A stretch of DNA of 31,214 nt. It comes from a virus. A program made the position numbers and the translations under genes. Below, piece after piece: positions 5,011 through 26,954 of the stretch; the first letter of the stretch is position 1; each line of letters begins with the position of its first letter. The notes below the pieces were generated by a model. That model was not told where the DNA came from and did not search any database. It worked only from the letters and a program-made list of their open reading frames with translations. The stretch is from the IMG/VR virus record IMGVR_UViG_3300034018_001973, positions 1-31,214 of that record; one strand, written 5' to 3'.

Positions 5011-8000
5011 ATGGCATATGGCCTCAGAGTTATTAATGACGCATCAGAGATATTAGTTGACAGTAATTATATTAACCCAACCTTTATAAAAAAAGTAGAG
5101 TTTAATGCTACCGCTACCAGTACAGCAGCAGGTTCACCGTTGTTACACTCTGGGTATGTAGCCAGATCATATACTACCCCAGGTTTAGGTATTACAGGTA
5201 ATTGGATAGTTTTATGGGCTATCCCAAGTAATACACAAGACGTATGGTATAAACTTCCACAACAACCTTTGTATGGTTCTAGTAATGTTACAACTTTATC
5301 TTGTACAGTGTATGCAAATAGTAGTGGACAGGCTTTAAGTTATAGTTTGCCTACAGCATATATTTTTGGAGTAGACTCATTGACTATAGGGGCCTTGCCG
5401 TCAACAGGCCCAGCTTTACGACTATACAGCGATACAGGACAAAAAACATTTGACAGTAATCACTTGCAACTACTGCCCTACTCTATTAGCAATGAAGTAG
5501 AAATACCTGCGCCTGATAATATTCTTGCACCTAACCAGCCTGAGTCTATCAAAAGTTTATTAATAGACGTTCCTGGCACTAACCCAATATTTTTATTACC
5601 GCATGCTCAATATTTTCAAGCATCAGATGATATTTACTTTTCAGGGTTTAGTCCAGGCATACCTGGTACAGATTTTTCTGCTACATCAGTTGTATTTAAA
5701 AGAGAGCCTTCAACACAATCTGGAAAAGCACTGATAAAATTAAAATCACTGTTTACTTATTATAAAAATATTACTCCAAGAAATGAATATGACAGTGCAT
5801 TTTTAACAAGCGGAAACACTGTTCAATTATCGGTTTTGTGTGCTGACGGAAATTTTTACGCAACAGCAGGTGCCGGAACTGGAGGAGGAGCTAATCCACA
5901 ATATGAATTAAGCGCTAATTATTCTAGTGTAAATGAAGGTACGATAGTAACTGTAACGCTAAATACTACTTTAGTCAGTGATAATACTTTAGTGCCTTAT
6001 ACAATTACTGGCATAAGTGGGGAAGACTTAGTAAGTGGAGGATTAACAGGAAGCTTTAACGTAGTTAGCAATACTGCTAATGCACAGTTTATTATTAAAA
6101 ACGATAGCGTAACTGAAGGGCCAGAAACATTTACCCTTACTTTAAACGGTTTAGCTGTTAATACTAGTTTTACTATACTTGATACTAGTATTGCAGCAGC
6201 TCAATATAGTTTTGGAACTGTACCCTCAGTTAATGAAGGTGGAAACTATATTATACCTTTTAGTGCTACTAATGCTGGAGGTCAAGAAGTAAGTTTTACT
6301 ACTATTACTGCTACAACGGGCACATATTGGAACCAAGGTGTGCGCCTGGATGGAGCACTACTCACAAGTAGTTTTGTAGTTCCTGGTAATTCTACGGCAA
6401 CCACTAATGTGAGTTTTACAACTTATAAAGACTTGATGACAGATGGGCAAAAAACATTCAGGATTCAAGCATCGGTAAATGGTACAGTAGTAGCTACTAG
6501 TGCAAATATTTTTATTACCGATACATCTACGTCTTCAATAACAGCTCCTGATACTATATTAGAACTAACTCCAAGCACCGAGATTACTATTTCAGTTGCA
6601 AATGGATATGACCTGGGAGAACTTAGTAATATAAGAATTGAGTCAAACAGTAATAAATTGTTTGTTATACCTGGACAACCTAACAATTGGACAATTAATA
6701 GTAATAGCTTTTCAGCTACTACATATTTATACGCAGCAAGTGTTACAGAAGACACACCTGTAACACTTTCTCTTATAGGTGGTGGGGGCAACATTACTCC
6801 ACTTGCAGAAAAAACAATTACAGTTATTAATGCTACCCCTTCGTATAGCTGGGAAATTCCTTCAGCTATAAATGAAGGAAGTACTGGTTCTTTACAGTTT
6901 AACTACAGTAATGCTGCAAATACAACAATATACTTTGCCATAAGTCCTGGAGCTAATGTTACTAGTTCTGACGTTACTTTAAATACTACTTCTCACACAG
7001 TTGGTAATAGCAACGCCGCAGGATCTGTTAGCGTAAGTTATTCAGTAAGTGCAGATGCTTTTACTGAAGGCGTGGAGAGTTTTACACTTAGCGGAGCAGG
7101 AGTATTTTCTCAACCTATTACTATTAATGATACAAGTACTACTCCAGAACCTGCTTATAGTATTACTGCTAATAGTACTCCTTGGAATGAAAGCTCTACA
7201 AGAGTTTGTAGTGTTTCCGTTCAGAACGCAGCAGGCACTACACTAGCTTTGGTTTCTGACAATGCTAGTGTAACTAGTCAGGTTGCAACTATATACATTA
7301 ACAGTAACAATTATTCAACTCTTACTTATTGGAATGTTGGAGATGTTGCAGCCGATGTTACTGTAAACATGGCACTAAAAATAAATGGTACTGGTACTGC
7401 TGGCGGATACAATGGTACTTTAGTTGCAACAACTTCCGCTTTAGTTAGGAACATAATCCCTGCAGGAACTGTATTAAGATATTTTTGTAGTGGAGTAGAT
7501 AGGTATGTGGTAAAAGCTGACGGTACGTATAATGGAGAGTATACCGAACTCTATGAAGCAAATAGTTTAATTTGTGGATATATTCCACCAAGCTGGGCAT
7601 TATCTGCGTCGCCTACAAATATTAATGAAGGTGGTAGTACTACAATCACTTTAACAACTAATCAAAGTGGTAATTTTGCGTATACTATTTCAGGAGTTAG
7701 TAGTGCTGATATAGGTGGTACTAGTTTAACAGGTGTTTTAGCGAACGGTGGCTCACGCGTTATTACGCTTACTGCAGACAACTTAACAGAACCAACAGAA
7801 ACCCTTACTTTAGCATTAAATAATGGGCAGGCCAGTGCTTCAGTAACCATAAACGATACTTCTAGAAGTTCCGTAGAGATACTGCAGTCTGGTAATATCA
7901 ACGGTACTGTTGGCACATCTTTTTCTAGTACTTTTACAGTAGAGGTTAATGGTAGCCAGTATCCTGCTATTTGGAGTTATTCTGGAACACTACCCCCTGG

Positions 8001-10731
8001 ACTAAATTTAACGGCTAGTTCAAATACTTTTAGTAGTTACTATATGGTATATGTTTTAAGTGGCACCCCCACTACAGCAGGTACTTATAATTTTACTATA
8101 ACTGCAACAGCAAGTACTAGTCCTGCAGATACTGTTTCCGTACCTTTTAGTGTAACAATCTACGAAGCTTTTGGAGTTTATTATAGTCAATACTGTAGCG
8201 GTGTTGATCTTTACTACAGATACCATAATGGAAGTGGTGGTTTCTTTGATAGTTTATATCAGGCTAATAGTCCTAGTTGCGGATATATAGCTCCTACATA
8301 TTCATTGTCTGCGTCTCCTACAAATGTTAATGAGGGTAGCAGTACTACTATTACGCTAACAACTAATCAAAGTGGAAATTTTGGTTACACTATTACAGGT
8401 GTCACTAGTGCTGATATAGGTGGAACAAGCTTAACTGGCACTTTGGCTAATGGTGGTACTAGAGTTATCAATGTAACAAACGATTCATTAACAGAAGGTA
8501 CAGAGACACTTACCGTATCCCTAGACAATGGTCAAGCTAGTACAGCTGTAACAATCAATGACACTTCTAGAAATGTTTTATCTATTAATCAAAGCGGTAG
8601 CTCTTCAGGTACAGTAGGCAGCTCTTTTAGCACAACCTTTACTGTAACAGTTAATGGTAGCCAGTATCCTGCTGTCTGGAGTTATTCAGGATCAATACCT
8701 CCTGGTACATCTTGGAGCCAATACCCAGAAGTTTTTAGTGGCTTTTATCTAGTTTACGGTCTATCAGGAACACCTACAGTTGCAGGAACTTATACATTTA
8801 CTGTAAATGCTACAGCTAGTACTGGTGATTCTGTTTCAGCATCGTTTACTGTAACTATAGCTCCTGCTCCCACATACTCATTAACACGTAGTGTAGCTAG
8901 TGTTAACGAAGGCGGAAGTTTTACTATAAGTTTTTCAACTAATCAAAGTGGAAATTTTGGTTATACTATTTCAGGAGTTTCAAGCGCTGATATCAGTAAT
9001 GCAAGTCTAACTGGAACGATTACTAATGGTAGTGTACTTACTTATACTGCCGCAGCAGATTTAACTACTGAAGGTGCAGAAACATTTAATATAGCGTTAA
9101 ATAATGGGCAAGCTAGTACATCTGTAACTATTAATGATACTTCTACAACTCCTCCTACGTATGCACTAACTCGCAGCGCAGCTAGTGTTAACGAAGGCAC
9201 TATTATTACTATTACATTAACGACTACTTCAGTTAGTGACGGTACATCAATACCTTATACAATTACTGGAATTTCGACTGCAGACTTAGTCAGTGGCGGA
9301 TTAACAGGTAACTTCAGTATCAGCAGTAATTCTGCTAATGCTCAGTTTATTATCAAAAATGATAGTTTAACAGAAGGTACAGAAACATTTACCTTAGCGT
9401 TGGACAACGGCCAAGCTAGTATTTCGGTAACAATTAATGATACTTCTATAACTCCCACATACTCATTAACACGTAGTGTAGCTAGTGTTAACGAAGGCGG
9501 AAGTTTTACTATAACTTTTTCAACTAATCAAAGTGGAAGTTTTGGCTACACTATTACAGGGGTTTCAAGTAATGATATTAGTTTAGCATCGTTAACTGGA
9601 ACTGTTACTAACGGTACTGTACTTACTTATACTGTAGCAGCAGATGCCATTACAGAAGGTGCAGAAATATTTGGTATAGATTTAGATAACGGGCAGGCGG
9701 GTACTTCGGTAACCATAAACGATACTTCAACCAGTACATTAGGTATTGAGCGGGGAGGCGATAGTTTTGGAACTGTAGGAACATCATTTAGTTCGTTCTT
9801 TAGATTTATGGTTAACAGTACGCAAACAGGCGCTGCTTGGAGTTACACTGGTACACTGCCTCCAGGGTTGACGTTAACAGAAACCGCAGGATATTCTGGT
9901 GCTTATCAAATATATAGTCTAGCCGGAACACCTACTACAACAGGTGTTTATACTTTTACTATAACTGCAACGGCTGGTTTAAATTCCACTTCGCAACAGT
10001 TCAGTATTAATATAAGTAATCCAAGTCCCAACTATTATTTAGCTAATACCTGGACAAGTTTAGCAAATGGATCAAGCAGTACTTTTACAGTAACTAGTAA
10101 TTATGCTAATGGTGTTACACTTACACCTTCAATTAGTGGAACAGGTTCAGCCCGAGTTAGTATAGACCCCACTAGTAGGACTATAAGCGGAAATGGTACT
10201 GTAAATAATAATTTTACAGTAACTGCAACAACACCTACTGCAACAATTGCTGAGCAATCTGTAACAATTAGTGTTGCAGGTACATCGTTTACTTTTACTG
10301 TACCTGCTTATACTTTTGTACCTACTGCGCCTATTGTAACTTCAGTAACTATGAGTGACATTACATACCCTCCTGGACTTGGAGTACAGGGTTCTATTAA
10401 CTTTAGTGGTCCTATAACCGCAAACACTTATGTAAATGTAAGATTTGTTTACGCAGGAAATACTACTTATCTTCCAAATAATTCTTCTACTCAAGGAGCT
10501 AGTCCTCCAGGAGCTTACGGTTATTATGGAGAAGATCTAACGTTAACTATAGGTCAAACAAGTGCTACTTTTTTACTACCAGCTGCTAATACAGAAAGTG
10601 ATCAGTTCAACAACAGAGTTTCTGCAAAAACAGTAACCGCACCTACTGGCGGTTCTGACAGACAGGCTTATGTTGAAGGAGGTGCATTTACTCTCTTAGG
10701 CTCTGGCGGCGGTGGTAATCAAAACCAGTAA
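5011..10731 (+). CDS. Giant Calx-beta / putative-Ig surface protein of the tail
   Basis: A 1906-residue protein. Residues 1 to about 170 (MAYGLRVIND...) look like a tail attachment domain shared with the preceding gene. From 297 to 1571 it is mainly Calx-beta-like domains of about 95 residues: each has an N-terminal VNEGxxxTITL strand, then TEGxETFTL, and closes with SVTINDTS. Clear units are at about 297-393, 394-507, 611-710, 862-952, 1096-1187, 1288-1379, 1383-1480 and 1483-1574; those at 508-609 and 711-820 are degenerate. Three putative-Ig (He_PIG type) domains with a LPPGL...LSGTPTTAGTYTFT core lie at about 954-1052, 1189-1284 and 1576-1669. Two copies of a two-cysteine module sit at C826/C855 and C1062/C1090. 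The C-terminus (1771-1906) is a separate domain ending in glycines. Calx-beta and He_PIG domains are typical of adhesive extracellular proteins. A host-surface or environment-binding role is inferred, and no catalytic residues are seen. It is the last gene before a strong terminator. Confidence 0.85.
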   Translation: MAYGLRVINDASEILVDSNYINPTFIKKVEFNATATSTAAGSPLLHSGYVARSYTTPGLGITGNWIVLWAIPSNTQDVWYKLPQQPLYGSSNVTTLSCTVYANSSGQALSYSLPTAYIFGVDSLTIGALPSTGPALRLYSDTGQKTFDSNHLQLLPYSISNEVEIPAPDNILAPNQPESIKSLLIDVPGTNPIFLLPHAQYFQASDDIYFSGFSPGIPGTDFSATSVVFKREPSTQSGKALIKLKSLFTYYKNITPRNEYDSAFLTSGNTVQLSVLCADGNFYATAGAGTGGGANPQYELSANYSSVNEGTIVTVTLNTTLVSDNTLVPYTITGISGEDLVSGGLTGSFNVVSNTANAQFIIKNDSVTEGPETFTLTLNGLAVNTSFTILDTSIAAAQYSFGTVPSVNEGGNYIIPFSATNAGGQEVSFTTITATTGTYWNQGVRLDGALLTSSFVVPGNSTATTNVSFTTYKDLMTDGQKTFRIQASVNGTVVATSANIFITDTSTSSITAPDTILELTPSTEITISVANGYDLGELSNIRIESNSNKLFVIPGQPNNWTINSNSFSATTYLYAASVTEDTPVTLSLIGGGGNITPLAEKTITVINATPSYSWEIPSAINEGSTGSLQFNYSNAANTTIYFAISPGANVTSSDVTLNTTSHTVGNSNAAGSVSVSYSVSADAFTEGVESFTLSGAGVFSQPITINDTSTTPEPAYSITANSTPWNESSTRVCSVSVQNAAGTTLALVSDNASVTSQVATIYINSNNYSTLTYWNVGDVAADVTVNMALKINGTGTAGGYNGTLVATTSALVRNIIPAGTVLRYFCSGVDRYVVKADGTYNGEYTELYEANSLICGYIPPSWALSASPTNINEGGSTTITLTTNQSGNFAYTISGVSSADIGGTSLTGVLANGGSRVITLTADNLTEPTETLTLALNNGQASASVTINDTSRSSVEILQSGNINGTVGTSFSSTFTVEVNGSQYPAIWSYSGTLPPGLNLTASSNTFSSYYMVYVLSGTPTTAGTYNFTITATASTSPADTVSVPFSVTIYEAFGVYYSQYCSGVDLYYRYHNGSGGFFDSLYQANSPSCGYIAPTYSLSASPTNVNEGSSTTITLTTNQSGNFGYTITGVTSADIGGTSLTGTLANGGTRVINVTNDSLTEGTETLTVSLDNGQASTAVTINDTSRNVLSINQSGSSSGTVGSSFSTTFTVTVNGSQYPAVWSYSGSIPPGTSWSQYPEVFSGFYLVYGLSGTPTVAGTYTFTVNATASTGDSVSASFTVTIAPAPTYSLTRSVASVNEGGSFTISFSTNQSGNFGYTISGVSSADISNASLTGTITNGSVLTYTAAADLTTEGAETFNIALNNGQASTSVTINDTSTTPPTYALTRSAASVNEGTIITITLTTTSVSDGTSIPYTITGISTADLVSGGLTGNFSISSNSANAQFIIKNDSLTEGTETFTLALDNGQASISVTINDTSITPTYSLTRSVASVNEGGSFTITFSTNQSGSFGYTITGVSSNDISLASLTGTVTNGTVLTYTVAADAITEGAEIFGIDLDNGQAGTSVTINDTSTSTLGIERGGDSFGTVGTSFSSFFRFMVNSTQTGAAWSYTGTLPPGLTLTETAGYSGAYQIYSLAGTPTTTGVYTFTITATAGLNSTSQQFSINISNPSPNYYLANTWTSLANGSSSTFTVTSNYANGVTLTPSISGTGSARVSIDPTSRTISGNGTVNNNFTVTATTPTATIAEQSVTISVAGTSFTFTVPAYTFVPTAPIVTSVTMSDITYPPGLGVQGSINFSGPITANTYVNVRFVYAGNTTYLPNNSSTQGASPPGAYGYYGEDLTLTIGQTSATFLLPAANTESDQFNNRVSAKTVTAPTGGSDRQAYVEGGAFTLLGSGGGGNQNQ
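7459..8871 (+). repeat. Tandem duplication of a cysteine module + Calx-beta + putative-Ig unit
   Basis: Within the giant surface protein gene, the order two-cysteine module, Calx-beta domain, putative-Ig domain occurs twice in a row. The first unit starts near 7459 and the second near 8167, about 708 bases (236 codons) apart. Protein similarity is high throughout: CSGVDRY against CSGVDLY, SASPTNINEGG against SASPTNVNEGS, and NGSQYPAIWSYSG against NGSQYPAVWSYSG. The DNA is also close, for example GTAGCCAGTATCCTGCT-type stretches in both putative-Ig parts. The duplication is in frame and intact. Confidence 0.85.
8867..8929 (+). repeat. 63-base perfect direct repeat, copy 1
   Basis: This stretch begins CTCCCACATACTCATTAACA and encodes the start of one Calx-beta unit. 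It is identical, base for base, to 9452-9514. After one mismatch the match continues for 23 more bases, so 86 of 87 positions agree. Identity at third codon positions suggests recent duplication or gene conversion. Confidence 0.9.
9452..9514 (+). repeat. 63-base perfect direct repeat, copy 2
   Basis: Identical to 8867-8929. The offset is 585 bases, exactly 195 codons. Recombination between the copies would remove or add two Calx-beta domains without breaking the frame. Confidence 0.9.
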
Positions 10732-13534: not shown

Positions 13535-16500
13535 ATGGCAACAGCATCAATTAAAGTAAAACGCAGTGCAGTAGCTGGTCGTATACCAGCTACCACTGAT
13601 TTACAGTTAGGCGAAATAGCAATCAACACATATGATGGTGTTGCTTATATCAAGAAAAATGTCAACGGCACTGAAACCGTTGTTAATCTTGGTGGTACTG
13701 TAGAGCTTAGTCAAAACTTACAAAATCGTTACCAGTACACAGCTACTAGTAATCAAACAACTTTTGCAGCCGTTTATTTAGCGCCTTTTGTAGATGTTTT
13801 CTTGAATGGTGTTAAGTTAGTGGCTGGTGTCGACTATACTGCTACTAATGGTACTAGTATTGTACTAGCCACAGGTGCTACTGCTGGTAATATACTTGAT
13901 ATTGTTGCTTATACAACTTATACAGCAAATGCTAATTATGCCGACTTTGATAACGCAATTGTTGTTAATGCTCTTGGCTATACTCCTTATAATGCTACAA
14001 ATCCAAGTAATTATATTACTTTGGCACAAGCACGTTCAGGCATTTCAGCAAGTGGAAGTTTAGCTTATGATTCCTCAACTGGTGTGTTCAGCTATACAAC
14101 TCCCTCAACTACTGGAATTACCGAAGGTACGAATCTTTATTTTACAGATGCACGTGCACGTAGTGCATTAAGCGCCAGTACTGGTATTAGCTATAATTCT
14201 ACAACGGGTGCAATCAGTTCTACGATTACTCAATACACAGATGCTTTGGCACGTGGTGCGGTATCGGCAGCTGGAAGTTTAAGTTATAATTCTACTACTG
14301 GTGTGTTCAGCTATACAACACCGACTACTAGTGGTATTAGCGAAGGTACAAATCTTTACTTTACAGACGCACGTGCTCGAGCAGCACTAAGTGCTAGTAC
14401 TGGTATTAGTTATAATTCCTCAACGGGAGCTATCAGCTCAACAATTACTCAATACACAGATGCGCTTGCACGTGGAGCAATCTCTGTTACAGGTTCTGGT
14501 TCTTATGATTCTACAACTGGTGTTATTACAGTTACAGGAGGTGTTACAAGTGTAAACACTCGTACCGGTGCCGTTACTTTAACCAGTTCAGATGTTGGAT
14601 TAGGCTCAGTTGAAAATAAAAGCTCTGCTACTATTCGTGGTGAGTTGACCTCAGGAAACGTTACTGGTGCACTTGGTTTTACACCAGAAAATTCCGCAAA
14701 TCGTGGAGTTGCCAATGGTTATGCAAGTTTAAATAGTTCTGGGCAAATTCCTAGTGGTCAACTACCAAGTTATGTAGATGACGTACTTGAAGCCGCAAAC
14801 TTAGCCAGTTTTCCCACCACAGGCGAAACAGGCAAAATTTATGTTGCACTAGACACCAACAAAACTTATCGTTGGAGTGGTAGTGCTTATGTTTATATTA
14901 CTAGTGGAGCAGTTGATTCAGTAGCTGGTAAGACTGGTGTTGTTACATTAACTAATTCAGATGTTGGTTTAGGTAGTGTAGAAAATAAAAGTTCTGCTGC
15001 TATTCGTGGAGAAATTACTAGTTCGAATGTTACTACTGCTTTAGGATTTACACCATATAATGCAACTAATCCTAATGGTTATATAACTGGGATTACTAGC
15101 AGCAACGTTACTACAGCATTAGGTTTTACGCCATACAGCGCAGCTAACCCTAGCGGGTACATTACAAGCGCTGCTTTAGGTAGTTATTTGCCTTTGGCCG
15201 GCGGAACGCTGACAGGTGCGTTGAATGGAACTACTGTTGCTACAACTGGTAATATTGCGGTTGGTACTACGCTGTCAACTTTTATCAGTGGGTGGTACGC
15301 CCTTGAAGTTGGTAAGAACGCATCGATCCAAACTACAACCGCAGATAACTTGTTTGTTGGGTTCAATTCAGTTTTTAACTCAGCAGGTTATGTTAATAAA
15401 ACAGCAAATCAGGCGTCAGGCGGATTCTTTTTTGGCACTGACGGAAGCGCATCTATTCGCTACGCGGCAGCTCAAACAGCTGTAGGTACTGCAATTAGTT
15501 TTACAACTCCATTTACATTTGTGGGGGCTACCGGTGCATTTAATGCTTCCGGCGCAATTACCCAGAACGGCAATCAAGTCCTTCACGCAGGTAACTACAC
15601 AAGCTACAGTCCATCTCTGACTGGTTCCGGTGCAAGCGGCACTTGGGGTATTAGTATTAGTGGAACCGCAGAACGAACCAAAGGTGTTAGCACATCAGAC
15701 CCTTTTATTGGTACTGGCGGTTTGTGGGTTACGTCTGCAACTGGTTTAAATATTGCACGGAACGGCACAGCGTATCTTGGGCTTGATGCTGGCAACTACA
15801 CAAGCTACGTAAACCCAAAAGGTGGCGGATGGTACGGCTCTGGTTTACCCGGAAGTCGTTGGGGCGGATACTCCGTCAGTGGTGGTGAAATTTCATTTGG
15901 TGATGGTTTGCCCAACGCTGGTCAAATGGGTATTTTAGTAGACGGATGTTATGTAGCTGGTGAAAATAATGGTTTTTGGTCAATGGGCAGCGATAACACT
16001 TGGGGTTCGCGCCGTGGTATGTACTGGGATGGAACCTACTTAAACTTTACGACCAACAGTGCCACGGCTTACTTTACCAATGCGTTAATTGGTGGGAATC
16101 AAATTTTCCATGCAAGTAACTATACCGGCTACAACGGCATTGTTCGAGCCTTGGGTGCTCCATCCTCTAGCAATGACTGGAACAGCCTAGGTAATACATA
16201 CGCTAACAGCATAATCCAAGTTGACCCATCAAACTTTTCAAGTACAAGCAATGGCCCAACAGCAGCTTCGTACACTTACGGCACGTTGCTGAATTTTGCA
16301 ACTAACGCAAGTTCACAGTCGCAAATTTTTATCAGCCACGCTGGCAATGATTTGATTTTCCGTGGCGGTTGGAATGGCAATAGCTGGCAAACATGGAACA
16401 AGGTTCTAACTAATCAGAACTACAACAGCTACAGCCCAACATTAACGGGGGGTAATGCTTCTGGCACTTGGGGTATTAACGTAACAGGAACAGCCTCTGG

Positions 16501-19480
16501 TGAAAATCTTGGTACGGTAACAGCTAGAAGTGGATATACAGGCAGTGCAGTTACTCTAGCAAGTGGAGCAAATCACTATCAAGGCCATTTTTATTACGAC
16601 TCATACGATGCTGCAGGTAATCACTATCCTCACTTTACAGATGGTGGAAATGCTTCTGGTGTTAAAGTAAATTGGAGACTTTATACTGGCGGTACTAATT
16701 CAGTAACTCACTATTGGGGGACTGATACAGCTCAGTTTGCAACAAAATTAGAATCAACTGTACGTATTGACGCTCCAATTTTCTACGACAGGAATGACAC
16801 AGCCTATTATATTAACCCTAATGGTTCATCCCAAGTAAGCGGAAGTAATTTTTACTTTGGTTCAAAGGGTCAAATTTATGACGACGGTAATTTCCATATT
16901 GACGGAAGAAATTCTCCAGTATGGATTAACTCATTAAATAATGATGTAATATACTTAAATAGCCAAACTTCTGGTCACACTGTAATGGGTAACAGTGCAA
17001 GGTCGCCAATTTTTTACGACAGCAACGACACAGGGTATTACTTAAATCCTAATGGTGGTAGTCTTTTTAGTAGCCTAGCACTCAATGGTGATTTTAGAAC
17101 TGCTTTTGTAAGTGGCGCAGGCGGTTCGACTTTTGGTGCAAGTCACTACTCTATGGGTAAAGATATTGCCAATGGCGGTTGGTCACACCCGCACTACTCT
17201 GACTTAATCATTGGATACCATACCGGTATTCGTATTGGTGCTCATTATTCTGGTATTAGGTTTTACAACAACTCACCAACAACTGACGCAAACAATGACG
17301 GCAATGGTGATGCTGGTGAAGCGCTATTGATGACAATTGGTGGTTATGTTGGTACAGCAAATCATAGTGATGTGTATGTCAATAACCATCTTTTTGCTGG
17401 CGGATCGATGCGCTCGCCAATCTTCTACGACAACAACGACACAGCGTACTACTGCAACCCAAACAGTTTCTCGCAGCTTTCGTACGCCAATTTTAATGCT
17501 TCGCCAAACGGACGTACGTTGTCTCTTGGTGGCGATGAAACTGACCGGATTATTAACGACCCTGCCCGATCTAGTTTAGTAATTAATGCTACGTTGTATC
17601 CGCATCTGTACATTAACGCAACTGCAAACGCAAGTAATACTAACCACGGCCCTGTTTTTTCCATGACTGGAGTGTTGACAGCTGGCGGTTATAGAAGATG
17701 GGGTATGGGTATTGCTAATACCAACCCAGATTGCTTTAGTTGGGGTTATTACGATAACGAAACAAACCCTCATTATGGTGTAGGTGGTACTTTTGGATAT
17801 ACCGCCACCAATTCAAAAATGTGGTTAAACACTGGCGGTTCTTTATGGACTACTGGTGATATGCGTTCACCAATTTTCTATGACAGTAATGACACTGCAT
17901 ATTATGTGGATCCCAATTCGTCTGGAACTTGCTTTAGAGGTTATGGCACAGTAGATTCACGAGTTGGATTTGTTAGTAATGGTAACCCTTGGGGTACAGC
18001 TAATAGTGCATACTTCCCAAATGGTATTACAACAGCTGGTGGCACTAATTGGGTTTACGGTTTTACTTATATTGGCAATGCTCCTTCAAATGGATCAGGT
18101 CACGAGTTTGGTTCTGATGGTACTATGCGTAGTACAGGGTCGCATAGAGCATCTATATACTACGAGGACAGTAATACCTCATATTACGCAGATCCAAATG
18201 GTATGTCCTCAATGTTTGGTGTTGCTATCCGTGGTGATAATGACTCAACAGGAACGTCAAACCAACTCTTTTTGTGGGGTGCTGGCAACACTACAACTTC
18301 TTCAATTGGCTTTAAAGCTAGTGGTGGCGCTTTCCCTAACCCAACTGGTAATGGTGATGGTTATAACACTTACTTTACAATGGATAGCAACGGGCGTGGT
18401 TGGGTGTTTCGCAGAGGTGTTGGAGGCAGTGATTTCAGTTCATCATTTACTTCTGGTTGGATTACAAACAATGGTACTTGGCAATCTAATGGGTCAATGC
18501 GTGCACCAATCTTCTATGATAGTGATGATACCGCCTATTACATAGATCCATCAAATGGTGGCTTTAATTTAAGGGGTGGGTCAGGCAATCGTTTAACTTA
18601 TTTTACTAATGACAGTGGTATTATTATAAATAATGCTGAGGGTAGTGGGTCTAATGTAAGAGTAGGAGCGGCCTGGGGTCTTCCAGGAATTTATAATGGT
18701 GGCAATATCCATTTAATGTCTGAGGGTAGTGTAGTTTTCCGCACACAGAACATTGAACGGGGATACATGGATTCTAGTGCAAATCTGTTTGCGTACGGTT
18801 CTATGCGAGCACCAATTTTTTATGATCAAAACGATACAGCACGTTATGTAGACCCTAATAGTGAATCTAGACTTAGCACACTACGATTGTCTGGTGGACG
18901 TTTAATTATTAATGGTGGCGATCCAACTATTCAATTTGTAGATTCGGACCAACGTGGTGCTGCATTACACAACAATTCTAACTTATTTTATATCCTTAGT
19001 TCTAATGGTGTCGGTGGTGAAAGCTGGTCAACCAATAATGGTTACTGGCCTTTTTATATTGATTTAAATAGCAATGACTCTACCTTTGGCGGAAGCATCT
19101 GGGCGGCAGGAAATATTACTGCATATTCAGATGTAAAACTCAAAGAGAACATTCAAACAATTGATAGCGCACTTGAAAAAGTACTCAAGCTTCGTGGTGT
19201 ATACTATACACTTAAACGTGATGAAACTAAGACCAGAAAAATTGGTGTAGTTGCTCAGGAAGTCCAAGAAGTTCTTCCTGAAGTAGTTGTGCTACACAAA
19301 GATATTGAAGATGAAGAAGGTACTCTTGCAGTTGATTATGGCAATATCAGTGGTCTTTTAATTGAGGGTATGAAAGAGCAAAACCAAGAAGTAGTAGATT
19401 TAAAGTCTAAACTTAATCAACAACAATCAGAACTAGATGAGTTAAAATCACTAGTCAAATCCTTGTTAGCGAGCCGATAA
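13535..19480 (+). CDS. Giant tail fibre A with C-terminal S74 self-cleaving chaperone
   Basis: 1981 residues; AAGGGA lies upstream of the ATG. An attachment head (residues 1 to about 150, IKVKRSAVAGRIPATTDLQL) is followed by five 35-40-residue shaft repeats at about 161-336 (TEGTNLYFTDARARAALSAS type). Next come two copies of SDVGLGSVENKSSA and a series of GFTPYNA/GFTPYSA turns. From about 1080 onward, seven copies of an IFYDSNDTAYYxxPN motif separate modules of roughly 100 residues. The end is a Peptidase_S74 domain, the intramolecular chaperone of endosialidases and many fibres. Ser1865 and Lys1870 in AYSDVKLKEN match the Ser-Lys dyad, so cleavage just before Ser1865 would release a 117-residue trimerising chaperone with a C-terminal coiled coil (SKLNQQQSELDELKSLV). 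This is a probable receptor-binding fibre. The receptor cannot be read from sequence. Confidence 0.9.
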   Translation: MATASIKVKRSAVAGRIPATTDLQLGEIAINTYDGVAYIKKNVNGTETVVNLGGTVELSQNLQNRYQYTATSNQTTFAAVYLAPFVDVFLNGVKLVAGVDYTATNGTSIVLATGATAGNILDIVAYTTYTANANYADFDNAIVVNALGYTPYNATNPSNYITLAQARSGISASGSLAYDSSTGVFSYTTPSTTGITEGTNLYFTDARARSALSASTGISYNSTTGAISSTITQYTDALARGAVSAAGSLSYNSTTGVFSYTTPTTSGISEGTNLYFTDARARAALSASTGISYNSSTGAISSTITQYTDALARGAISVTGSGSYDSTTGVITVTGGVTSVNTRTGAVTLTSSDVGLGSVENKSSATIRGELTSGNVTGALGFTPENSANRGVANGYASLNSSGQIPSGQLPSYVDDVLEAANLASFPTTGETGKIYVALDTNKTYRWSGSAYVYITSGAVDSVAGKTGVVTLTNSDVGLGSVENKSSAAIRGEITSSNVTTALGFTPYNATNPNGYITGITSSNVTTALGFTPYSAANPSGYITSAALGSYLPLAGGTLTGALNGTTVATTGNIAVGTTLSTFISGWYALEVGKNASIQTTTADNLFVGFNSVFNSAGYVNKTANQASGGFFFGTDGSASIRYAAAQTAVGTAISFTTPFTFVGATGAFNASGAITQNGNQVLHAGNYTSYSPSLTGSGASGTWGISISGTAERTKGVSTSDPFIGTGGLWVTSATGLNIARNGTAYLGLDAGNYTSYVNPKGGGWYGSGLPGSRWGGYSVSGGEISFGDGLPNAGQMGILVDGCYVAGENNGFWSMGSDNTWGSRRGMYWDGTYLNFTTNSATAYFTNALIGGNQIFHASNYTGYNGIVRALGAPSSSNDWNSLGNTYANSIIQVDPSNFSSTSNGPTAASYTYGTLLNFATNASSQSQIFISHAGNDLIFRGGWNGNSWQTWNKVLTNQNYNSYSPTLTGGNASGTWGINVTGTASGENLGTVTARSGYTGSAVTLASGANHYQGHFYYDSYDAAGNHYPHFTDGGNASGVKVNWRLYTGGTNSVTHYWGTDTAQFATKLESTVRIDAPIFYDRNDTAYYINPNGSSQVSGSNFYFGSKGQIYDDGNFHIDGRNSPVWINSLNNDVIYLNSQTSGHTVMGNSARSPIFYDSNDTGYYLNPNGGSLFSSLALNGDFRTAFVSGAGGSTFGASHYSMGKDIANGGWSHPHYSDLIIGYHTGIRIGAHYSGIRFYNNSPTTDANNDGNGDAGEALLMTIGGYVGTANHSDVYVNNHLFAGGSMRSPIFYDNNDTAYYCNPNSFSQLSYANFNASPNGRTLSLGGDETDRIINDPARSSLVINATLYPHLYINATANASNTNHGPVFSMTGVLTAGGYRRWGMGIANTNPDCFSWGYYDNETNPHYGVGGTFGYTATNSKMWLNTGGSLWTTGDMRSPIFYDSNDTAYYVDPNSSGTCFRGYGTVDSRVGFVSNGNPWGTANSAYFPNGITTAGGTNWVYGFTYIGNAPSNGSGHEFGSDGTMRSTGSHRASIYYEDSNTSYYADPNGMSSMFGVAIRGDNDSTGTSNQLFLWGAGNTTTSSIGFKASGGAFPNPTGNGDGYNTYFTMDSNGRGWVFRRGVGGSDFSSSFTSGWITNNGTWQSNGSMRAPIFYDSDDTAYYIDPSNGGFNLRGGSGNRLTYFTNDSGIIINNAEGSGSNVRVGAAWGLPGIYNGGNIHLMSEGSVVFRTQNIERGYMDSSANLFAYGSMRAPIFYDQNDTARYVDPNSESRLSTLRLSGGRLIINGGDPTIQFVDSDQRGAALHNNSNLFYILSSNGVGGESWSTNNGYWPFYIDLNSNDSTFGGSIWAAGNITAYSDVKLKENIQTIDSALEKVLKLRGVYYTLKRDETKTRKIGVVAQEVQEVLPEVVVLHKDIEDEEGTLAVDYGNISGLLIEGMKEQNQEVVDLKSKLNQQQSELDELKSLVKSLLASR
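14015..14541 (+). repeat. Shaft repeats near the N-terminus of fibre A
   Basis: Five consecutive repeats of about 35-40 residues. The recurring parts are TEGTNLYFTDARARxALSAS or TQYTDALARGAxS, then GISYNSSTGAISSTI or SLSYNSTTGVFSYTTPT. The first and last copies are degenerate. Closely related repeats occur in fibre B at 20516-20998, so the two fibres share shaft-building units. Confidence 0.85.
16772..18861 (+). repeat. Seven IFYD-type motif repeats in fibre A
   Basis: Copies of a roughly 17-residue motif with the pattern (R/D)(A/S)PIFYDxNDTxYYxxPN start near 16772, 17000, 17411, 17863, 18147, 18499 and 18806. The spacing is uneven, about 230-450 bases. The copy at 18147 is the most divergent (RASIYYEDSNTSYYADPN). 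The motif marks the joints between variable modules. Confidence 0.88.
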
Positions 19481-19494: not shown

Positions 19495-19518
19495 AAATAG
19501 CCAATTTTGGAGAAAATA

Positions 19519-19887
19519 ATGGCAATTACTTATACATGGAAAATCACTTCTTTAAAAACCAAAACCGAAAACGGTAATGAAGGTGCAGTTGTTCAAACTT
19601 ACTGGACCAAAACTGGAGTAGACGAAGACAATCACGAAGGTACGTTTTCAGGAGCAACTCCTTTTAGTTCACTTAACATGCCTGAAGGCTCTACTTTTAC
19701 CCCGTTTCAAGACCTAACAGAAGAAATCGTACTAAACTGGATTAAAGCAGTGGTTGTGGGTGGTTACGAAGAACACGTTAATGCTCAAATTCAAAAGCAA
19801 ATTGACGAAAAGCACAACCCCATCACAGAAGCTACAATGCCCTGGGCACCTCCTTCTGCTCCAGCTCCTGCCCCAACAACACCTTAA
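19519..19887 (+). CDS. Fibre-associated small protein 1 (DUF7936-like)
   Basis: 122 residues from the ATG at 19519, chosen because GGAG at 19509-19512 sits at proper distance; an upstream in-frame TTG at 19507 would overlap that site. The protein starts AITYTWKITSLKTKTENGNE, contains VVQTYWTKTGVDEDNHEGTF and TPFQDLTEEIVLNWIKAVVV, then an amphipathic helix (EEHVNAQIQKQIDEKHNP), and ends TMPWAP plus a proline/alanine tail. This matches a small phage protein family I recall as DUF7936; the family name is unverified. It and the next gene are paralogs and lie between two S74 fibres. A fibre-assembly or minor virion role fits the position but is inference. Confidence 0.78.
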   Translation: MAITYTWKITSLKTKTENGNEGAVVQTYWTKTGVDEDNHEGTFSGATPFSSLNMPEGSTFTPFQDLTEEIVLNWIKAVVVGGYEEHVNAQIQKQIDEKHNPITEATMPWAPPSAPAPAPTTP

Positions 19888-19896
19888 AGGGTACTT

Positions 19897-20265
19897 ATGA
19901 CTGAACAAGTTACACCTAATTTTACCGCTACATTTACGATTAAACCAACAGGTATTCGTACAGCTACTGTTGGCAATCGTACAAATGTTGTTAAACAAGT
20001 AGAGTGGACAATGGTCGGTGAAGAGGCTGAGCAAAAATTTGAATTACCACAAACCACAACTCTTGAAGATCCCAACGGCCAAGAATTTATTGAGTTAGCC
20101 AACTTAACTGAAGCTAATGTTGTTGCTTGGATTCAAGCAACCGACACACGTATTCCTGGCATCAAAGCACACATTCAATTTGTGTTAGATAAGGAAGTGG
20201 CCAAAAGCGCTTTAGCTACCACAGCAATGCCTTGGGCACCAGTGGTTGAAACACCAACACCTTAA
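19897..20265 (+). CDS. Fibre-associated small protein 2, paralog of the preceding gene
   Basis: 122 residues, with AAAGGG just behind the previous stop as ribosome binding site. The layout repeats that of the preceding gene: an N-terminal strand pair (FTATFTIKPTGIRTATVGNR), VVKQVEWTMVGEEAEQKF, a LANLTEANVVAWIQ segment matching DLTEEIVLNWI, a helix (IKAHIQFVLDKEVAKSA), then TAMPWAP and a proline-threonine tail. The PWAP ending is shared by both genes. Sequence between them has diverged a lot, so the duplication is old. The function is unknown; one partner per fibre is an attractive but unproven idea. Confidence 0.75.
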   Translation: MTEQVTPNFTATFTIKPTGIRTATVGNRTNVVKQVEWTMVGEEAEQKFELPQTTTLEDPNGQEFIELANLTEANVVAWIQATDTRIPGIKAHIQFVLDKEVAKSALATTAMPWAPVVETPTP

Positions 20266-20332: not shown

Positions 20333-23300
20333 ATGAGTACACCACGTAATTTATCAAAATTAGCAGAAAACACAAACTCTAGTGGTGTATTAGGTATTGC
20401 AAGTGGCGGTACTGGTGGAACCACCACTACCGCCGCCAAAACTGCATTGGGTTTGCACGAAGTGGCCTCTACCGGAAGCTACACAGATTTAGACAACAAG
20501 CCTACCACAACGCAAATCACCGAAGGCACTAACCTTTACTTTACAGATGCGCGGGTACGTGCCGCAATCAGTGCCAGTGGAAGTTTAAGCTATAACTCTA
20601 GCACAGGTGTGTTAAGTTATACAACTCCTAGTACAACTGGTATTACTGAAGGTACTAACTTATACTACACAGATTCACGTGCCCGTGCTGCTTTTAGTGC
20701 AGGCACTGGCATGAGTTATAATAGTTCTACTGGTGTGATCACAACCACAATCACACAGTATACTGATGCGCTAGCACGAGCTGCTGTAAGTGCAGGCACT
20801 GGATTAAGTTACAATAGCTCTACTGGTGTGTTTACAAATACGATCACACAGTATACTGATAGTTTAGCACGTGCTGCTGTAAGTGCATCAGGAAGTTTAA
20901 GCTACAACTCCACCACAGGTGTGTTCAGTTATACAACTCCCACTACTAGTGGAATTGCCGAAGGCACTAACTTATACTACACAGACGCTCGTGCAATTTC
21001 AGCTAATACTTCAGCAATTGCCACAGCAAAATCCGAAGCTATCAGCACAGCTGCCACAGATGCTACTGCTAAAGCCAACGCGGCTCAAGCAGCTGCTATC
21101 GCTGCCGTTACTAATGGAGCAGGTGCTGCGTTTGATACGCTCAAAGAAATTCAAGATGCAATGGCAACGGATCAAGAACTTGCCGCTGCTATTGCTGGAC
21201 TTACTATTGGCAATGCCACACAAACTATAAGCACAGGCACTGGGTTGTCAGGCGGTGGATCATTTACTGCCAATCAAACTTCACCAAGCACAGTTACCCT
21301 CGGCTTAGCTACTGCAGGTACTGCAGGAACTTATACCAAAGTAACTACAGATGCTTATGGTCGTGTTACTAGTGGCACTACTCTATCCAGCGGTGATATT
21401 CCTTCGTTATCAGGTTTATATTTACCACTAACTGGCGGAACGCTAACTGGTGGACTAATTATTAACGCTGGTGGTGGCTACCCAATTCAAGCCACCTCAA
21501 ATCAGCGTTATCAAATTGGCATTAAAAACACATCAGCATCAGCACAAACACAAGGCTGGTGGTTTGCTCACGACACTGGTGGCAACTTAGTTGTTCACGC
21601 AGACTCAAATGGTGACAAAGTTTCTATTGCAAGCAGTGGCTTTGGTTTGCAAGTAGGTGTAGCATCAACATACGACAATCCTGGTGGATGGAATGCAAAC
21701 GTTGTTGCATCTGGCACACACCACGCTCGCGTTCGTGTTAAAGGAACTTCTCACAACAGCAGCGGCGACAACGAAGCTTACTTGTGGGTTGATAATACTT
21801 TGGGGGGACATAGAACCGGGTTGTATAGTTCAACCAATTTTAACATCAACGTACCTAATTTGTATGAGTCAGGTAGTCGAGTTCTAAACTCCAGCAACTA
21901 CAACAACTACTCTCCAACACTAACTGGTGGAAATGCAAGTGGTACTTGGAATATTAATATTACAGGGTCTGCTGGTTCTGCTGGCTCGGTTGACTACAAC
22001 AATCTAACAAACAAAGCTGGCGGTACAGGCACATACACAACCAGCGGCGACTACCGCGCACCAATTTTCTACGACAGCAACGACACAACTTACTATTTAG
22101 ACCCAAATTCAACTACTGCTGCACTTCTTGCAGGTAGTATAGGTGTTGGTACTACCAGCCCAGTTAATTCCGCTTGGGGGACTGCTAGTAGTACTAAACA
22201 GATAACAGTTTATGGGTCAGCCTACGGCGTAGTCAATATCCGCGGTGATAGCACAACAGCTACTCACTATTCAATGGGTGTAGGCGATGGACGCTTTTAC
22301 GCTGCATATGACAACGTTGCAGCAATCCACAGGCTTGTTTTTTTCGGTAGCTTCACAGGTCTTAACTATGGAAGTTCTCCTGCTTACAATTTACATTTAG
22401 GTGGTACTGGACTCGCAACTGATGATTGGCGTGCTCCAATTTTCTACGACAGTAACGACACAAGTTATTACGTAAACCCGAATGGTGATTCCAGACTTTC
22501 CGGATTAAGTGTGGGTAGAGGGCCCGGAGGTTCAAACGCTGGTAACCTATATATCCAAGGAAATCACAATTGGCGCTGGATCGCAGGCTTCGCACCTGAT
22601 TATGGTGTTGGTAACGGTTTTGGTCTGTATTCTGATACCAATAGTGCATACTACCTGTCTTTGTCAACGGCAGGCAATTGGTGGTTTGGTGTAAACGACC
22701 ACAGTTCATCATACAGGGTCAGCATCAACGGCACTGGGTACGCATCAAGTGATTTACGCGCACCAATCTTCTACGACAGTAATGACACTTCTTGGTATGT
22801 CGACCCACATACAAATAGTAGACTAAATCAACTTGGAGTTGGTTCTAACAATACTGGTTATACATTTTATAACAACGGTACATCGTATTTAAATGGCGCT
22901 GTCACCATCGACGACACAGCTGCATTTACTGCGGGAAATCAATTGCAGTTTTATACCAGCGCTGGTAGTTTACGTGGGTATATAAATGTAACTGACACGG
23001 ACGACAATCATTTCCAGATTGCCACTTCAGGTGGAGAGGACATCGTATTTAAAGACTCCGGGTTGTCTGGAACAAGAAATCTTGTTATACGTGGCTCAAA
23101 TGCAGGTACTGAAGCCTATGGTTCAATGCGTTCGCCCATTTTCTATGACAGCAACGACACTGGATTCTATGTAGACCCTAATAGCACTTCACGGCTAAAT
23201 GGCGTTAGTGTGTACACTAGCGGTTCTTGGGGTTTTGTAAACGCAGCAAGAGGTAGCTATTACGGCTACTCAAGCAGCTACGGCACAGTTATTTATGGTG

Positions 23301-25648
23301 CTACAAGCGGAAGCATCACACCATGCTTTAACGTTGACCCCATTAATAACCCAAGTGGTTCTTTCAACGGCAATGGCGGCGAAGTCATGTTCCGTAATGG
23401 CGTGCAGTTCATTTCGCCAAACAGCTCCAATAACGGGTACAACAACTATTTTGTTTTGCAAGATGGGTATGCTGCAGCAAATAACAGTTTCCGCGCACCA
23501 ATCTTCTACGACAGCAACAACACAGGTTATTACGTAGACCCAAATGGCAACAGTGCCTTAACTACTGCAATATTTTATGTAAATGGGTCTTCTGAAATAA
23601 CGCTTACGTCAGCTGGCACAAACGCTTCTATGATAAAAGCGGGCTCTGGCGATGAGTTGTACATTGGCGGTAATAACACTTGGCAAATGCGGTTTAGTGG
23701 CGCTAATGTTTTAATGGATAACGGTGGTTATTTGTTAAATGGCGAATCTATTAGAGCACCAATCTTCTACGACACTAATAACACAGCTTATTACATAGAC
23801 CCAGCAGCTACTGTTTCAGGCTCTTTTGCAGGGTTTGTCGGTATTGGCGGCAATTATGGCAGCGATGATGGTGGCTGGGCGGCGCGACTGAATGTAGGTG
23901 GAACTCCTCACGCACGGCTTGATGTGCGAGCCGCCGGTGACGGAATTATCACCACTATGTACAGCCACAACGGTCAAAACCGAGGTTTTGTCGGCACGAT
24001 GTCGAATCACCGACTGGCGCTGGCTGTAAACGGCAGTGAAGTTCAATCGATTTTGAGTAGCTACTCAGAATCAATAGGTTCGTACCGAGCACCAATTTTC
24101 TACGACAGCAACGACACAGCCTATTACACCGACCCAAATAACACATCTAGAACAGCGGATATCCATACCAATCGTATTGGTATAGGACAAGGTGTAAACG
24201 CTTCTTGGCCGTTAATTGTTTCTGGTAATGCGTACTTAAATGCAAATGGCTATGGCCAAGCCGAAGGTTCATGGCGAGCGCCAATTTTCTACGACAGCAG
24301 CGACACTGGTTATTATGATGACCCCAACGGAACGGGTAATATAAGTTCGTTAAATATTCGCGGGACTCTAAGATTGTTTAGCAGTGAAGCTCTTCAAATC
24401 ATAGCCCCCAATCAAGCTCGTCAACGGGCAGATAGTCGAGACGAAAGCTCAGCTTCAAGAACACACTGGTATGGCTTGCTTACCGATGGCAATACAAGTA
24501 ATTTTCGCCATGCTTGGTACGACGGTTCAGCGTACTTTAATGTAACTGCTAGCGGCGGTGAAGTATCGTTTAATCGTGTTGGCGGCGGTGGATATGTTTC
24601 ATCAAATGAATCTTTACGTGCCCCAATTTTCTATGATCTTAACAACACATCCTACTATTGCAACCCAGATAATATTTCGGTTTTATGGGGATTAACGCTT
24701 GCGGGTGGTTCTTATTTCAGGCCACAAAACTGGATTCAGATGGATGGGTCATATGGAATCTATTGGCCAAACCACTACGGCGCACACCTTTACCCAAATG
24801 CTGGTTCTACGTACACACAGCTGCAGATAGACGGCAGCAAAAATTCGTACAGCGGCATGTATATTTCCCACAGCGCTGTTAATGGGATGATGTACGACGG
24901 TGGCGGTAACGGTGGTGTTTACCGCGAAGCTCAAGGCAGATGGTACTTTTATCACCACGTTGGCAACAACTGCATGGGGGTTGGAACGTCTAGTACAAGT
25001 TCTGCTTTTGGTATTTATGTTGTTAAAGGCGGTTATTTTGACGGTCGTGTTGATGCCACCATTCATTACGATGCAAGTGACACAGGGTACTACTTAGACC
25101 CAAACTCTACAACAGCCTTAAGAACCGTTGGCTCTTGGAGAGCAGATTCGGCTTCTTGGGATGGTGAATTTTCAGGCAAGATTCAATACCACAGCAGTAA
25201 TTGGTACTTCCAATACGCGGGTAGTATGCTTTTCCGCAATTCTGGCGGCAGTAATGTATTCACTGTTGACCAAAGTGGCAATGCTGTTGCTAGCGGCAAC
25301 GTTACTGCTTACTCGGATGCTCGCCTCAAAGAAAACGTCGTAACAATTGATTCGGCTTTAGACAAAGTTTTAAAATTGCGCGGTGTCTATTACAACAAAA
25401 TTGGCAACCCAGAACGCCGTGTGGGTGTCATTGCGCAAGAAACTGAAACGGTGTTGCCAGAAGTTGTTCGTTCGGTTTCAGACACCAACCCATCAACTGG
25501 AGAGACTCAAGAGTTGTTGGCGGTGGATTATGGAAACATAACAGGACTGCTTATCGAAGCTATAAAAGAACAAGACACGGAGATCACAGATTTACGAAAT
25601 TGCGTAGCCGAATTAAAGGCTCTTATTAACAAATTGATTAAGGAATAA
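20333..25648 (+). CDS. Giant tail fibre B with C-terminal S74 self-cleaving chaperone
   Basis: 1771 residues; AAGGGG precedes the ATG. The head differs from fibre A and carries a GIASGGTGGTTTTAAKTALG motif common at the base of phage fibres. Shaft repeats follow at about 62-222 (TEGTNLYFTDARVRAAISAS type), then an alanine-rich coiled-coil helix at about 223-292. Next are a YLPLTGGTLTGG turn and ten IFYDSNDTxYYxDPN motifs from about residue 575 to 1592, separating modules of roughly 60-145 residues. The C-terminus is a Peptidase_S74 domain: Ser1661 and Lys1666 in AYSDARLKEN fit the catalytic dyad, so a 111-residue chaperone should be cut off after trimer folding. It is similar to fibre A in its end and shaft but different in its modules, so it is likely a second receptor-binding fibre. 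Confidence 0.9.
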   Translation: MSTPRNLSKLAENTNSSGVLGIASGGTGGTTTTAAKTALGLHEVASTGSYTDLDNKPTTTQITEGTNLYFTDARVRAAISASGSLSYNSSTGVLSYTTPSTTGITEGTNLYYTDSRARAAFSAGTGMSYNSSTGVITTTITQYTDALARAAVSAGTGLSYNSSTGVFTNTITQYTDSLARAAVSASGSLSYNSTTGVFSYTTPTTSGIAEGTNLYYTDARAISANTSAIATAKSEAISTAATDATAKANAAQAAAIAAVTNGAGAAFDTLKEIQDAMATDQELAAAIAGLTIGNATQTISTGTGLSGGGSFTANQTSPSTVTLGLATAGTAGTYTKVTTDAYGRVTSGTTLSSGDIPSLSGLYLPLTGGTLTGGLIINAGGGYPIQATSNQRYQIGIKNTSASAQTQGWWFAHDTGGNLVVHADSNGDKVSIASSGFGLQVGVASTYDNPGGWNANVVASGTHHARVRVKGTSHNSSGDNEAYLWVDNTLGGHRTGLYSSTNFNINVPNLYESGSRVLNSSNYNNYSPTLTGGNASGTWNINITGSAGSAGSVDYNNLTNKAGGTGTYTTSGDYRAPIFYDSNDTTYYLDPNSTTAALLAGSIGVGTTSPVNSAWGTASSTKQITVYGSAYGVVNIRGDSTTATHYSMGVGDGRFYAAYDNVAAIHRLVFFGSFTGLNYGSSPAYNLHLGGTGLATDDWRAPIFYDSNDTSYYVNPNGDSRLSGLSVGRGPGGSNAGNLYIQGNHNWRWIAGFAPDYGVGNGFGLYSDTNSAYYLSLSTAGNWWFGVNDHSSSYRVSINGTGYASSDLRAPIFYDSNDTSWYVDPHTNSRLNQLGVGSNNTGYTFYNNGTSYLNGAVTIDDTAAFTAGNQLQFYTSAGSLRGYINVTDTDDNHFQIATSGGEDIVFKDSGLSGTRNLVIRGSNAGTEAYGSMRSPIFYDSNDTGFYVDPNSTSRLNGVSVYTSGSWGFVNAARGSYYGYSSSYGTVIYGATSGSITPCFNVDPINNPSGSFNGNGGEVMFRNGVQFISPNSSNNGYNNYFVLQDGYAAANNSFRAPIFYDSNNTGYYVDPNGNSALTTAIFYVNGSSEITLTSAGTNASMIKAGSGDELYIGGNNTWQMRFSGANVLMDNGGYLLNGESIRAPIFYDTNNTAYYIDPAATVSGSFAGFVGIGGNYGSDDGGWAARLNVGGTPHARLDVRAAGDGIITTMYSHNGQNRGFVGTMSNHRLALAVNGSEVQSILSSYSESIGSYRAPIFYDSNDTAYYTDPNNTSRTADIHTNRIGIGQGVNASWPLIVSGNAYLNANGYGQAEGSWRAPIFYDSSDTGYYDDPNGTGNISSLNIRGTLRLFSSEALQIIAPNQARQRADSRDESSASRTHWYGLLTDGNTSNFRHAWYDGSAYFNVTASGGEVSFNRVGGGGYVSSNESLRAPIFYDLNNTSYYCNPDNISVLWGLTLAGGSYFRPQNWIQMDGSYGIYWPNHYGAHLYPNAGSTYTQLQIDGSKNSYSGMYISHSAVNGMMYDGGGNGGVYREAQGRWYFYHHVGNNCMGVGTSSTSSAFGIYVVKGGYFDGRVDATIHYDASDTGYYLDPNSTTALRTVGSWRADSASWDGEFSGKIQYHSSNWYFQYAGSMLFRNSGGSNVFTVDQSGNAVASGNVTAYSDARLKENVVTIDSALDKVLKLRGVYYNKIGNPERRVGVIAQETETVLPEVVRSVSDTNPSTGETQELLAVDYGNITGLLIEAIKEQDTEITDLRNCVAELKALINKLIKE
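20516..20998 (+). repeat. Shaft repeats near the N-terminus of fibre B
   Basis: Four full repeats and a fifth partial one, built from TEGTNLYFTDARVRAAISAS or TQYTDALARAAVSAG and LSYNSSTGVxSYTT. They are homologous to 14015-14541 in fibre A and end at the start of the alanine-rich helix. Confidence 0.85.
22055..25108 (+). repeat. Ten IFYD-type motif repeats in fibre B
   Basis: Copies begin near 22055, 22430, 22757, 23129, 23492, 23753, 24086, 24275, 24617 and 25052. The common DNA is CACCAATTTTCTACGACAGC followed by AACGACAC, almost unchanged in most copies, also at third codon positions. The last copy is divergent (DATIHYDASDTGYYLDPN). Confidence 0.9.
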
Positions 25649-25651
25649 AAA

Positions 25652-26242
25652 ATGGCAGGATACCTACCCGGCAGTGGTGCACTTGCATTTTCAACCATCA
25701 ACTCAGTGTTTGATGGTCGCGGTTTAAATTTAAACGCTTATCGCGGTACGCAGTGGTACACGGCTGGGGGTGGCTCCGGCACGTTTCCAACCGGCGCAAT
25801 TTCGTTTAGTGATTTTTATAACAAAGGACCAAGCCCCGCCATTACAATTTCTTTAGCGTCACTTTCTGCTCTTTACGGCTCTAATCCAGGTGGCTATGCT
25901 TTTGCATACTATTTGTTTAACTCTAATGGTTTAATAAGGTATTGGCAGACTGGTACTAATGACGGAGCAGTTGGTAACTGGGCATCACCTACGACTACTG
26001 GAATTGGTTCAAGTTATTGGATTAGATTTACTCAAACTGGTAGTTTTGGCAGTGTGGCCGAAACAGGTAGTGCTAGAGGGTCTTGGATTTCGTTGTCAAT
26101 TAGTCCAACTTTTGGTGTTGAGAAACCAACCGCTGGTTATGGAGAACGTACATACACTGTTCAAATTGCAACTGATAGTGGGGGCTCTAACATAGTAGCA
26201 ACTAAAACTGGCGTTATACTAAGCGCTGAATATGTATTTTAA
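25652..26242 (+). CDS. Short tail/fibre tip protein
   Basis: 196 residues; AAGGAA before the ATG, 3 bases after fibre B. The N-terminal part contains the SGTFPTGAISFSDFYNKGP motif, which is widespread in phage tail proteins (GAISLSDFYGK type). The rest is a beta-rich, glycine/serine-rich domain (SYWIRFTQTGSFGSVAETGS, later YTVQIATDSGGSNIVATKTG) resembling a small Ig-like or carbohydrate-binding fold. There is no signal peptide or enzyme motif. A virion part at the tail end, perhaps binding at a fibre or tail tip, is likely from motif and place. Confidence 0.72.
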   Translation: MAGYLPGSGALAFSTINSVFDGRGLNLNAYRGTQWYTAGGGSGTFPTGAISFSDFYNKGPSPAITISLASLSALYGSNPGGYAFAYYLFNSNGLIRYWQTGTNDGAVGNWASPTTTGIGSSYWIRFTQTGSFGSVAETGSARGSWISLSISPTFGVEKPTAGYGERTYTVQIATDSGGSNIVATKTGVILSAEYVF

Positions 26243-26537: not shown

Positions 26538-26954
26538 ATGTGGATTTTACAATTTTTACCAAATTGGATATTTTATCTACTGTTATTTGCAGGAATAGTA
26601 ACATTTTTAGTAACTAAATTTGTTACTATTCTGCCTCAAGCAAAACTAATTCAAGCTGCAAGTATTGCAGCGGTTGCTATAAGCATCTATATGATAGGTG
26701 CTATTAGCAATAACGATGCATGGTTAGCTCGTGTGCAAGAGTTGCAAACAAAAGTAGCAGAAGCAGAAGCCAAGTCAGCAACAACTAACACAGATATTGT
26801 GGAAAAAACAGTTATAAAAACTCAAGTAATTCGTGAACGTGGTCAAGATACCATCAAGTACATAGATCGCGAAGTGGTTAAATATGATACCACTTGTGTT
26901 ATTCCACAAGAATTTGTACAAGCACACAATCGTGCAGCAGAGGCACCAAAATGA
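26538..26954 (+). CDS. Rz-like inner-membrane spanin (i-spanin)
   Basis: 138 residues. Two hydrophobic segments lie at about 10-30 (IFYLLLFAGIVTFLVTKFV) and 39-57 (AASIAAVAISIYMIGAI). A periplasmic coiled coil (LARVQELQTKVAEAEAKSA) and then IKYIDREVVKYDTTC with PQEFVQAHNRAAE follow, the C-terminal pattern seen in i-spanins of many Gram-negative phages. I-spanins span the periplasm with an outer-membrane lipoprotein and fuse the two membranes at the end of lysis. The next gene encodes that lipoprotein and starts inside this gene's stop (ATGA). The extra membrane segment is unusual, since lambda Rz has one. The ribosome binding site is weak. Confidence 0.82.
   Translation: MWILQFLPNWIFYLLLFAGIVTFLVTKFVTILPQAKLIQAASIAAVAISIYMIGAISNNDAWLARVQELQTKVAEAEAKSATTNTDIVEKTVIKTQVIRERGQDTIKYIDREVVKYDTTCVIPQEFVQAHNRAAEAPK

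Follow-up and report, generated by a model that had tools for sequence, protein, structure and literature searches.

In phages that carry DUF7936 proteins, the tip of the upstream fibre is often swapped in one piece with its Peptidase_S74 (S74) domain while the DUF7936 gene is left behind, and two types of DUF7936 protein, here called P1-type and P2-type, can replace each other downstream of one and the same fibre end. As far as our search shows, both the exchange pattern and the interchangeability are new. P1 and P2 themselves lie in the window, the whole stretch of 31,214 nucleotides of viral DNA analysed here. We tentatively propose as their most likely role, at a confidence somewhat short of even, that P1 and P2 act as fibre-agnostic accessories in the folding, trimerisation or mounting of large trimeric fibres. 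The features of the window that bear on this proposal are as follows.

P1: 19519..19887, + strand; DUF7936 protein of 122 aa, MAITYTWK... to C-terminal MPWAPPSAPAPAPTTP (PF25590, E = 2.3e-23; AlphaFold pLDDT 80).
P2: 19897..20265, + strand; divergent DUF7936 paralog of 122 aa, C-terminal MPWAPVVETPTP (PF25590, E = 3e-11; AlphaFold pLDDT 90).
Fibre A: 13535..19480, + strand; 1981 aa, with Peptidase_S74 near the C-terminus at residues 1865-1918 (PF13884).
Fibre A, C-terminus: coiled-coil end ...ELDELKSLVKSLLASR, common to slot-A relatives (C-terminal end comparison).
Fibre B: 20333..25648, + strand; 1771 aa, with Peptidase_S74 near the C-terminus (PF13884; tail fibre matches in PHROGs).
196-aa gene: 25652..26242, + strand; directly after fibre B, and in relatives after the slot-B DUF7936 gene (synteny, scores).

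The two 122-residue proteins that the earlier note had placed at 19519-20265 are both encoded there with ATG starts. On sequence inspection a Shine-Dalgarno-like GGAG precedes the P1 ATG, and a TTG start at 19507, which would give a longer P1 frame, is unlikely. The paralogy proposed for the pair is borne out by BLASTP (29% identity over 110 residues, E = 9e-11). Both are additional members of DUF7936, a family already in Pfam whose PHROG counterpart is PHROG 7802; they score 83.3 bits (P1) and 44.4 bits (P2) against a curated gathering cut-off of 27 and cover profile positions 1-103 and 3-103 of 103, with P2 forming a divergent branch within the family. No NCBIfam model matches either protein, bacterial genome contigs searched with P1 gave no close copy, and a literature search found no mention of DUF7936. 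In comparison with L081, the nearest relative of the window (L-numbers denote loci), dS is 0.20 and dN 0.06 for P1, and dS is 0.36 and dN 0.08 for P2. These low dN values relative to dS support P1 and P2 as real genes, and show them to be under purifying selection.

AlphaFold models with 87 homologs as input place three strands before two helices in both proteins (E-E-E-H-H; pTM 0.62 for P1 and 0.75 for P2), so the common layout stands with slightly more than the strand pair and helix originally read; the C-terminal tail is the lower-confidence part of both models. The LTExxVxxWI segment (LTEEIVLNWI in P1 and LTEANVVAWI in P2) sits at the start of helix 1, and its tryptophan, W74 in P1 numbering, is invariant across the 87 aligned members, in which T6, W29, G33, F60, L66, T67, V71, P108, and W109 are nearly invariant. 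The conserved tail of the earlier note survives in part. MPWAP is present in both P1 and P2 and PW lies near the C-terminus of 107 of the 110 unique members, but PWAP is found in 65 and no more than four residues follow PW in 22 of the 107 PW-bearing members. The proline tail is thus a trait of some members, while the near-universal signal is [M/L]PW only, which may act as a binding or self-packing element. A BFVD fold search with P1 returned many DUF7936 proteins at probability 1.00 as well as weak matches to Leuconostoc phage proteins. The PDB fold search gave nothing at E <= 0.001 for either model, with no match to solved chaperone or adaptor folds, and PDB sequence searches found no homolog of P1 or P2 among solved structures. 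A 90-aa protein encoded between a baseplate gene and the holin of Leuconostoc phage Ln-9 (L118, 25751-26023) may be the source of the weak BFVD match; since Ln-9 has no DUF7936 profile match, this protein is a lead only.

The link between DUF7936 and fibres holds well beyond the window. Among loci picked for carrying DUF7936 (viral contigs found with four DUF7936 queries, plus annotated isolates), an S74 gene stands directly upstream of 64 of the 126 non-redundant members (51%), compared with 3.5% of the other genes in the same loci, and directly downstream of 7 of the 126, the S74 profile and gene calling being simple and absence at a contig end meaning little. Among members without an adjacent S74 gene, nearly all of those with enough upstream sequence have a long non-S74 gene one to four genes upstream. 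Isolate phages of several kinds agree, with a fibre gene just upstream of DUF7936 and a tail fibre annotation on several of the long non-S74 genes. What holds throughout is therefore a position behind a fibre gene, with or without S74, in a family with a wide distribution across cyanophages, roseophages, and uncultured aquatic phages. Two more specific partners were considered and rejected: S74 itself, as many members follow non-S74 genes and most sampled S74 genes have no DUF7936, and, as a general rule, the FYD..T.YY.DP-type shaft repeat, of which only 31 of the 135 long genes upstream have two or more copies.

The position behind fibres could reflect a shared transcription slot rather than a shared function. 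DUF7936 could be a passenger of the late module with a host-directed or lysis-timing role, placed between the fibre and the lysis or packaging genes, although we regard this as quite unlikely. Lysis or terminase genes are found shortly downstream in several isolates, some isolates have DUF7936 annotated as lysozyme, and an exchange of the fibre tip that leaves DUF7936 in place is also what a passenger would predict. However, DUF7936 is likewise found behind internal fibres with another fibre gene next (L002-L005, L009, L010), Pfam and NCBIfam scans give no enzyme link, and the lysozyme label looks mistaken.

Genes so labelled occur in CRP-901 (L108, 8001-8348), S-EIVl (L109, 2654-2962), and DSL-LC07 (OQ999402, 10596-10880), and this analysis found no support for the label in any of the three. 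Other small proteins follow DUF7936 in some groups. In roseophages this is a weakly DUF6447-like coiled-coil protein of 72-73 aa (L112, 8336-8554; L108, 8376-8597), close in size to gp57A, the fibre chaperone of T4. In aquatic contigs (L026, L029, L030, L031, L037, L048, L049, L051) it is a family of 60-68 aa with an LN.V.A.L..LP core and, in many cases, a GPLS.K end; the two examined had no Pfam match.

Gene order in the window and in L081 is fibre A-P1-P2-fibre B. The pair does lie exactly between the two fibres here, as first described, but this is not the rule for the family, and a DUF7936 tandem upstream of the second fibre was seen in these two loci only. L003 and L005, whose fibre B N-terminus (MS[TI]PRNLSKLAE) resembles that of the window, have fibre A-P1-fibre B-P2-ORF200, with L004 and L002 similar; fibre A-P1-fibre B is the order throughout L002-L005, L009, and L010. 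The window order therefore looks rearranged, and is marked as such by the 196-aa gene, which sits directly behind fibre B instead of behind a slot-B DUF7936 gene. A loose family to which this 196-aa gene bears a resemblance (MALPATG.ISM..VR.YFG / MTLPASGNSISLSQVNTELG; L302-L371) is found directly behind many S74 fibres without DUF7936, includes short forms of 52-62 aa, and may be another group of small proteins linked to fibres. Elsewhere in the window, a 138-aa protein at 26538-26954 has weak PHROG matches to Rz-like spanins and starts a possible lysis region, and a 1906-aa protein at 5011-10731 has no PHROG match at E <= 0.001.

Evidence for the exchange comes from close pairs of loci, which were compared in place of a rank correlation between the similarity of DUF7936 and that of the fibre N-terminus, S74, and the neighbours; the correlation was highest for S74 (0.41), but many values at the floor made it hard to read. 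In many close pairs DUF7936 is 91%-99% identical and the upstream neighbour is at 0.86-1.0, while the 145 residues before S74 are only 10%-24% identical and S74 itself about 50%-60%. Fibre N-termini and neighbours are near-identical in many of the tip-swapped pairs, and in some pairs the N-terminus of the fibre is different as well (DUF7936 vs N-terminus identity of 0.98 vs 0.31 in L100/L103 and 0.95 vs 0.28 in L084/L086). At the DNA level, four pairs including window/L081 pass from background identity to 98%-100% at a boundary that lies 60-120 bp ahead of the DUF7936 start, inside the final coiled-coil segment encoded by the fibre ORF. Nothing speaks more strongly against a dedicated cap, adhesin or partner of S74 than this exchange of tip and S74 without DUF7936, and a cap matched to the tip, one of the roles originally suggested, is disfavoured by near-identical DUF7936 proteins downstream of tips that are unrelated and S74 domains that differ. 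Interchangeability is seen at slot B: with ...LESLINKLIGD as a constant fibre end and an unchanging downstream family, the DUF7936 protein is P2-type in, for example, L083, L084, and L086, and P1-type in L099, L100, L101, and L103. L089 carries a P1-type and a P2-type gene in tandem behind a similar fibre end.

The pairs with divergent fibre N-termini bear on a fairly unlikely alternative, in which DUF7936 is a minor virion component that serves as an adaptor or decoration between the fibre base and the baseplate or tail. Its tight position in the tail module, its conservation across tail types, and its combination of a small beta-alpha domain and a conserved motif in the tail are all consistent with such a role. 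Nevertheless, the N-terminus is the mounting end of the fibre and can differ strongly behind near-identical DUF7936, as in L100/L103; solved structures offer no sequence homolog; and the literature search found no virion mass-spectrometry data for any phage carrying DUF7936.

The exchange pattern also largely refutes the idea that DUF7936 is a cognate tip chaperone, cap or adhesin in the style of T4/S16 gp38 or Mu Tfa, with one protein for each fibre, and we consider this very improbable. Pam3 gp25 and Mu Tfa are described as chaperones with a variable N-domain that binds the fibre (PMC9608196), and the chaperones of Alteromonas phages V22 and A5 as being shared together with their fibres (PMC10579305). 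DUF7936 resembles these as a small protein encoded beside, and typically directly downstream of, a tail fibre gene, and its beta N-terminal and helical C-terminal parts are loosely like those described for Pam3 gp25 (PMC9608196). In contrast to the variable Tfa N-domain and the travelling Alteromonas chaperones, DUF7936 stays when the tip is exchanged, and a gp38-type adhesin or cap, which would travel with the tip it binds, differs in the same respect because tip and S74 are swapped behind a near-identical DUF7936. Pfam and NCBIfam scans and PDB sequence searches with P1 and P2 found no Tfa-type family, and no Tfa fold is among the 50 PDB matches listed for either model. S74 offers another comparison, as a chaperone that is likewise linked to trimeric fibres and ends both fibres of the window. 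However, S74 is built into the fibre chain, whereas DUF7936 is a separate protein of unrelated sequence that occurs with and without an upstream S74; PF13884 matches only the fibres and is absent from P1 and P2.

Copy numbers point in the same direction. DUF7936 and S74 genes number 2 vs 7 in record G008, 1 vs 4 in G016, and 1 vs 3 in G005 and G009, while in some records DUF7936 genes equal or outnumber S74 genes. Small-protein and S74-fibre copies, whose co-occurrence the earlier note had put forward as a check, differ widely in counts per record, and its hypothesis of one small protein per fibre fails on these unequal numbers, on the gene order of relatives, and on the swap of P1-type and P2-type at one slot. 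Of 42 non-redundant S74 genes sampled with the S74 query alone, regardless of DUF7936, and fetched with about 3 kb on each side, 7 are followed by DUF7936 and 31 have no DUF7936 in the fetched sequence on either side. Synechococcus phage S-CREM2 has a 4971-aa S74 fibre that was detected in virions by mass spectrometry (PMC10665884). This phage carries two S74 genes but gave no match to the DUF7936 profile, and its ORF127, a virion protein encoded beside a short tail fibre, is not DUF7936. The 31 S74 genes without a DUF7936 neighbour, together with a giant S74 fibre mounted without one in S-CREM2, argue that DUF7936 is not generally required. These results go part of the way towards the phages with functional fibres but without these genes that the earlier note had held would count against its proposal; the S-CREM2 fibre is without the FYD-type shaft repeats of the window fibres and therefore does not settle the matter for fibres built just like them.

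Since DUF7936 follows many kinds of fibre and is unchanged when the tip is swapped, general fibre accessories describe P1 and P2 better than dedicated partners. According to the proposed role, the DUF7936 protein would be produced from the module that also encodes the fibre and would act on some general property of fibres or of the way they are mounted instead of on the receptor-binding tip, so that its target would be the fibre or fibre assembly.

The exchange pattern ties DUF7936 to the fibre slot and not to fibre specificity, which narrows the roles that the family may have, and our findings question the lysozyme label of some of its members. It is conceivable, though unlikely, that DUF7936 is a promiscuous assembly factor working alongside the self-cleaving S74 chaperone. 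Phages could then swap tips freely because the helper need not be exchanged along with the tip, and the conserved start of the DUF7936 gene would double as the right-hand flank when tips recombine.
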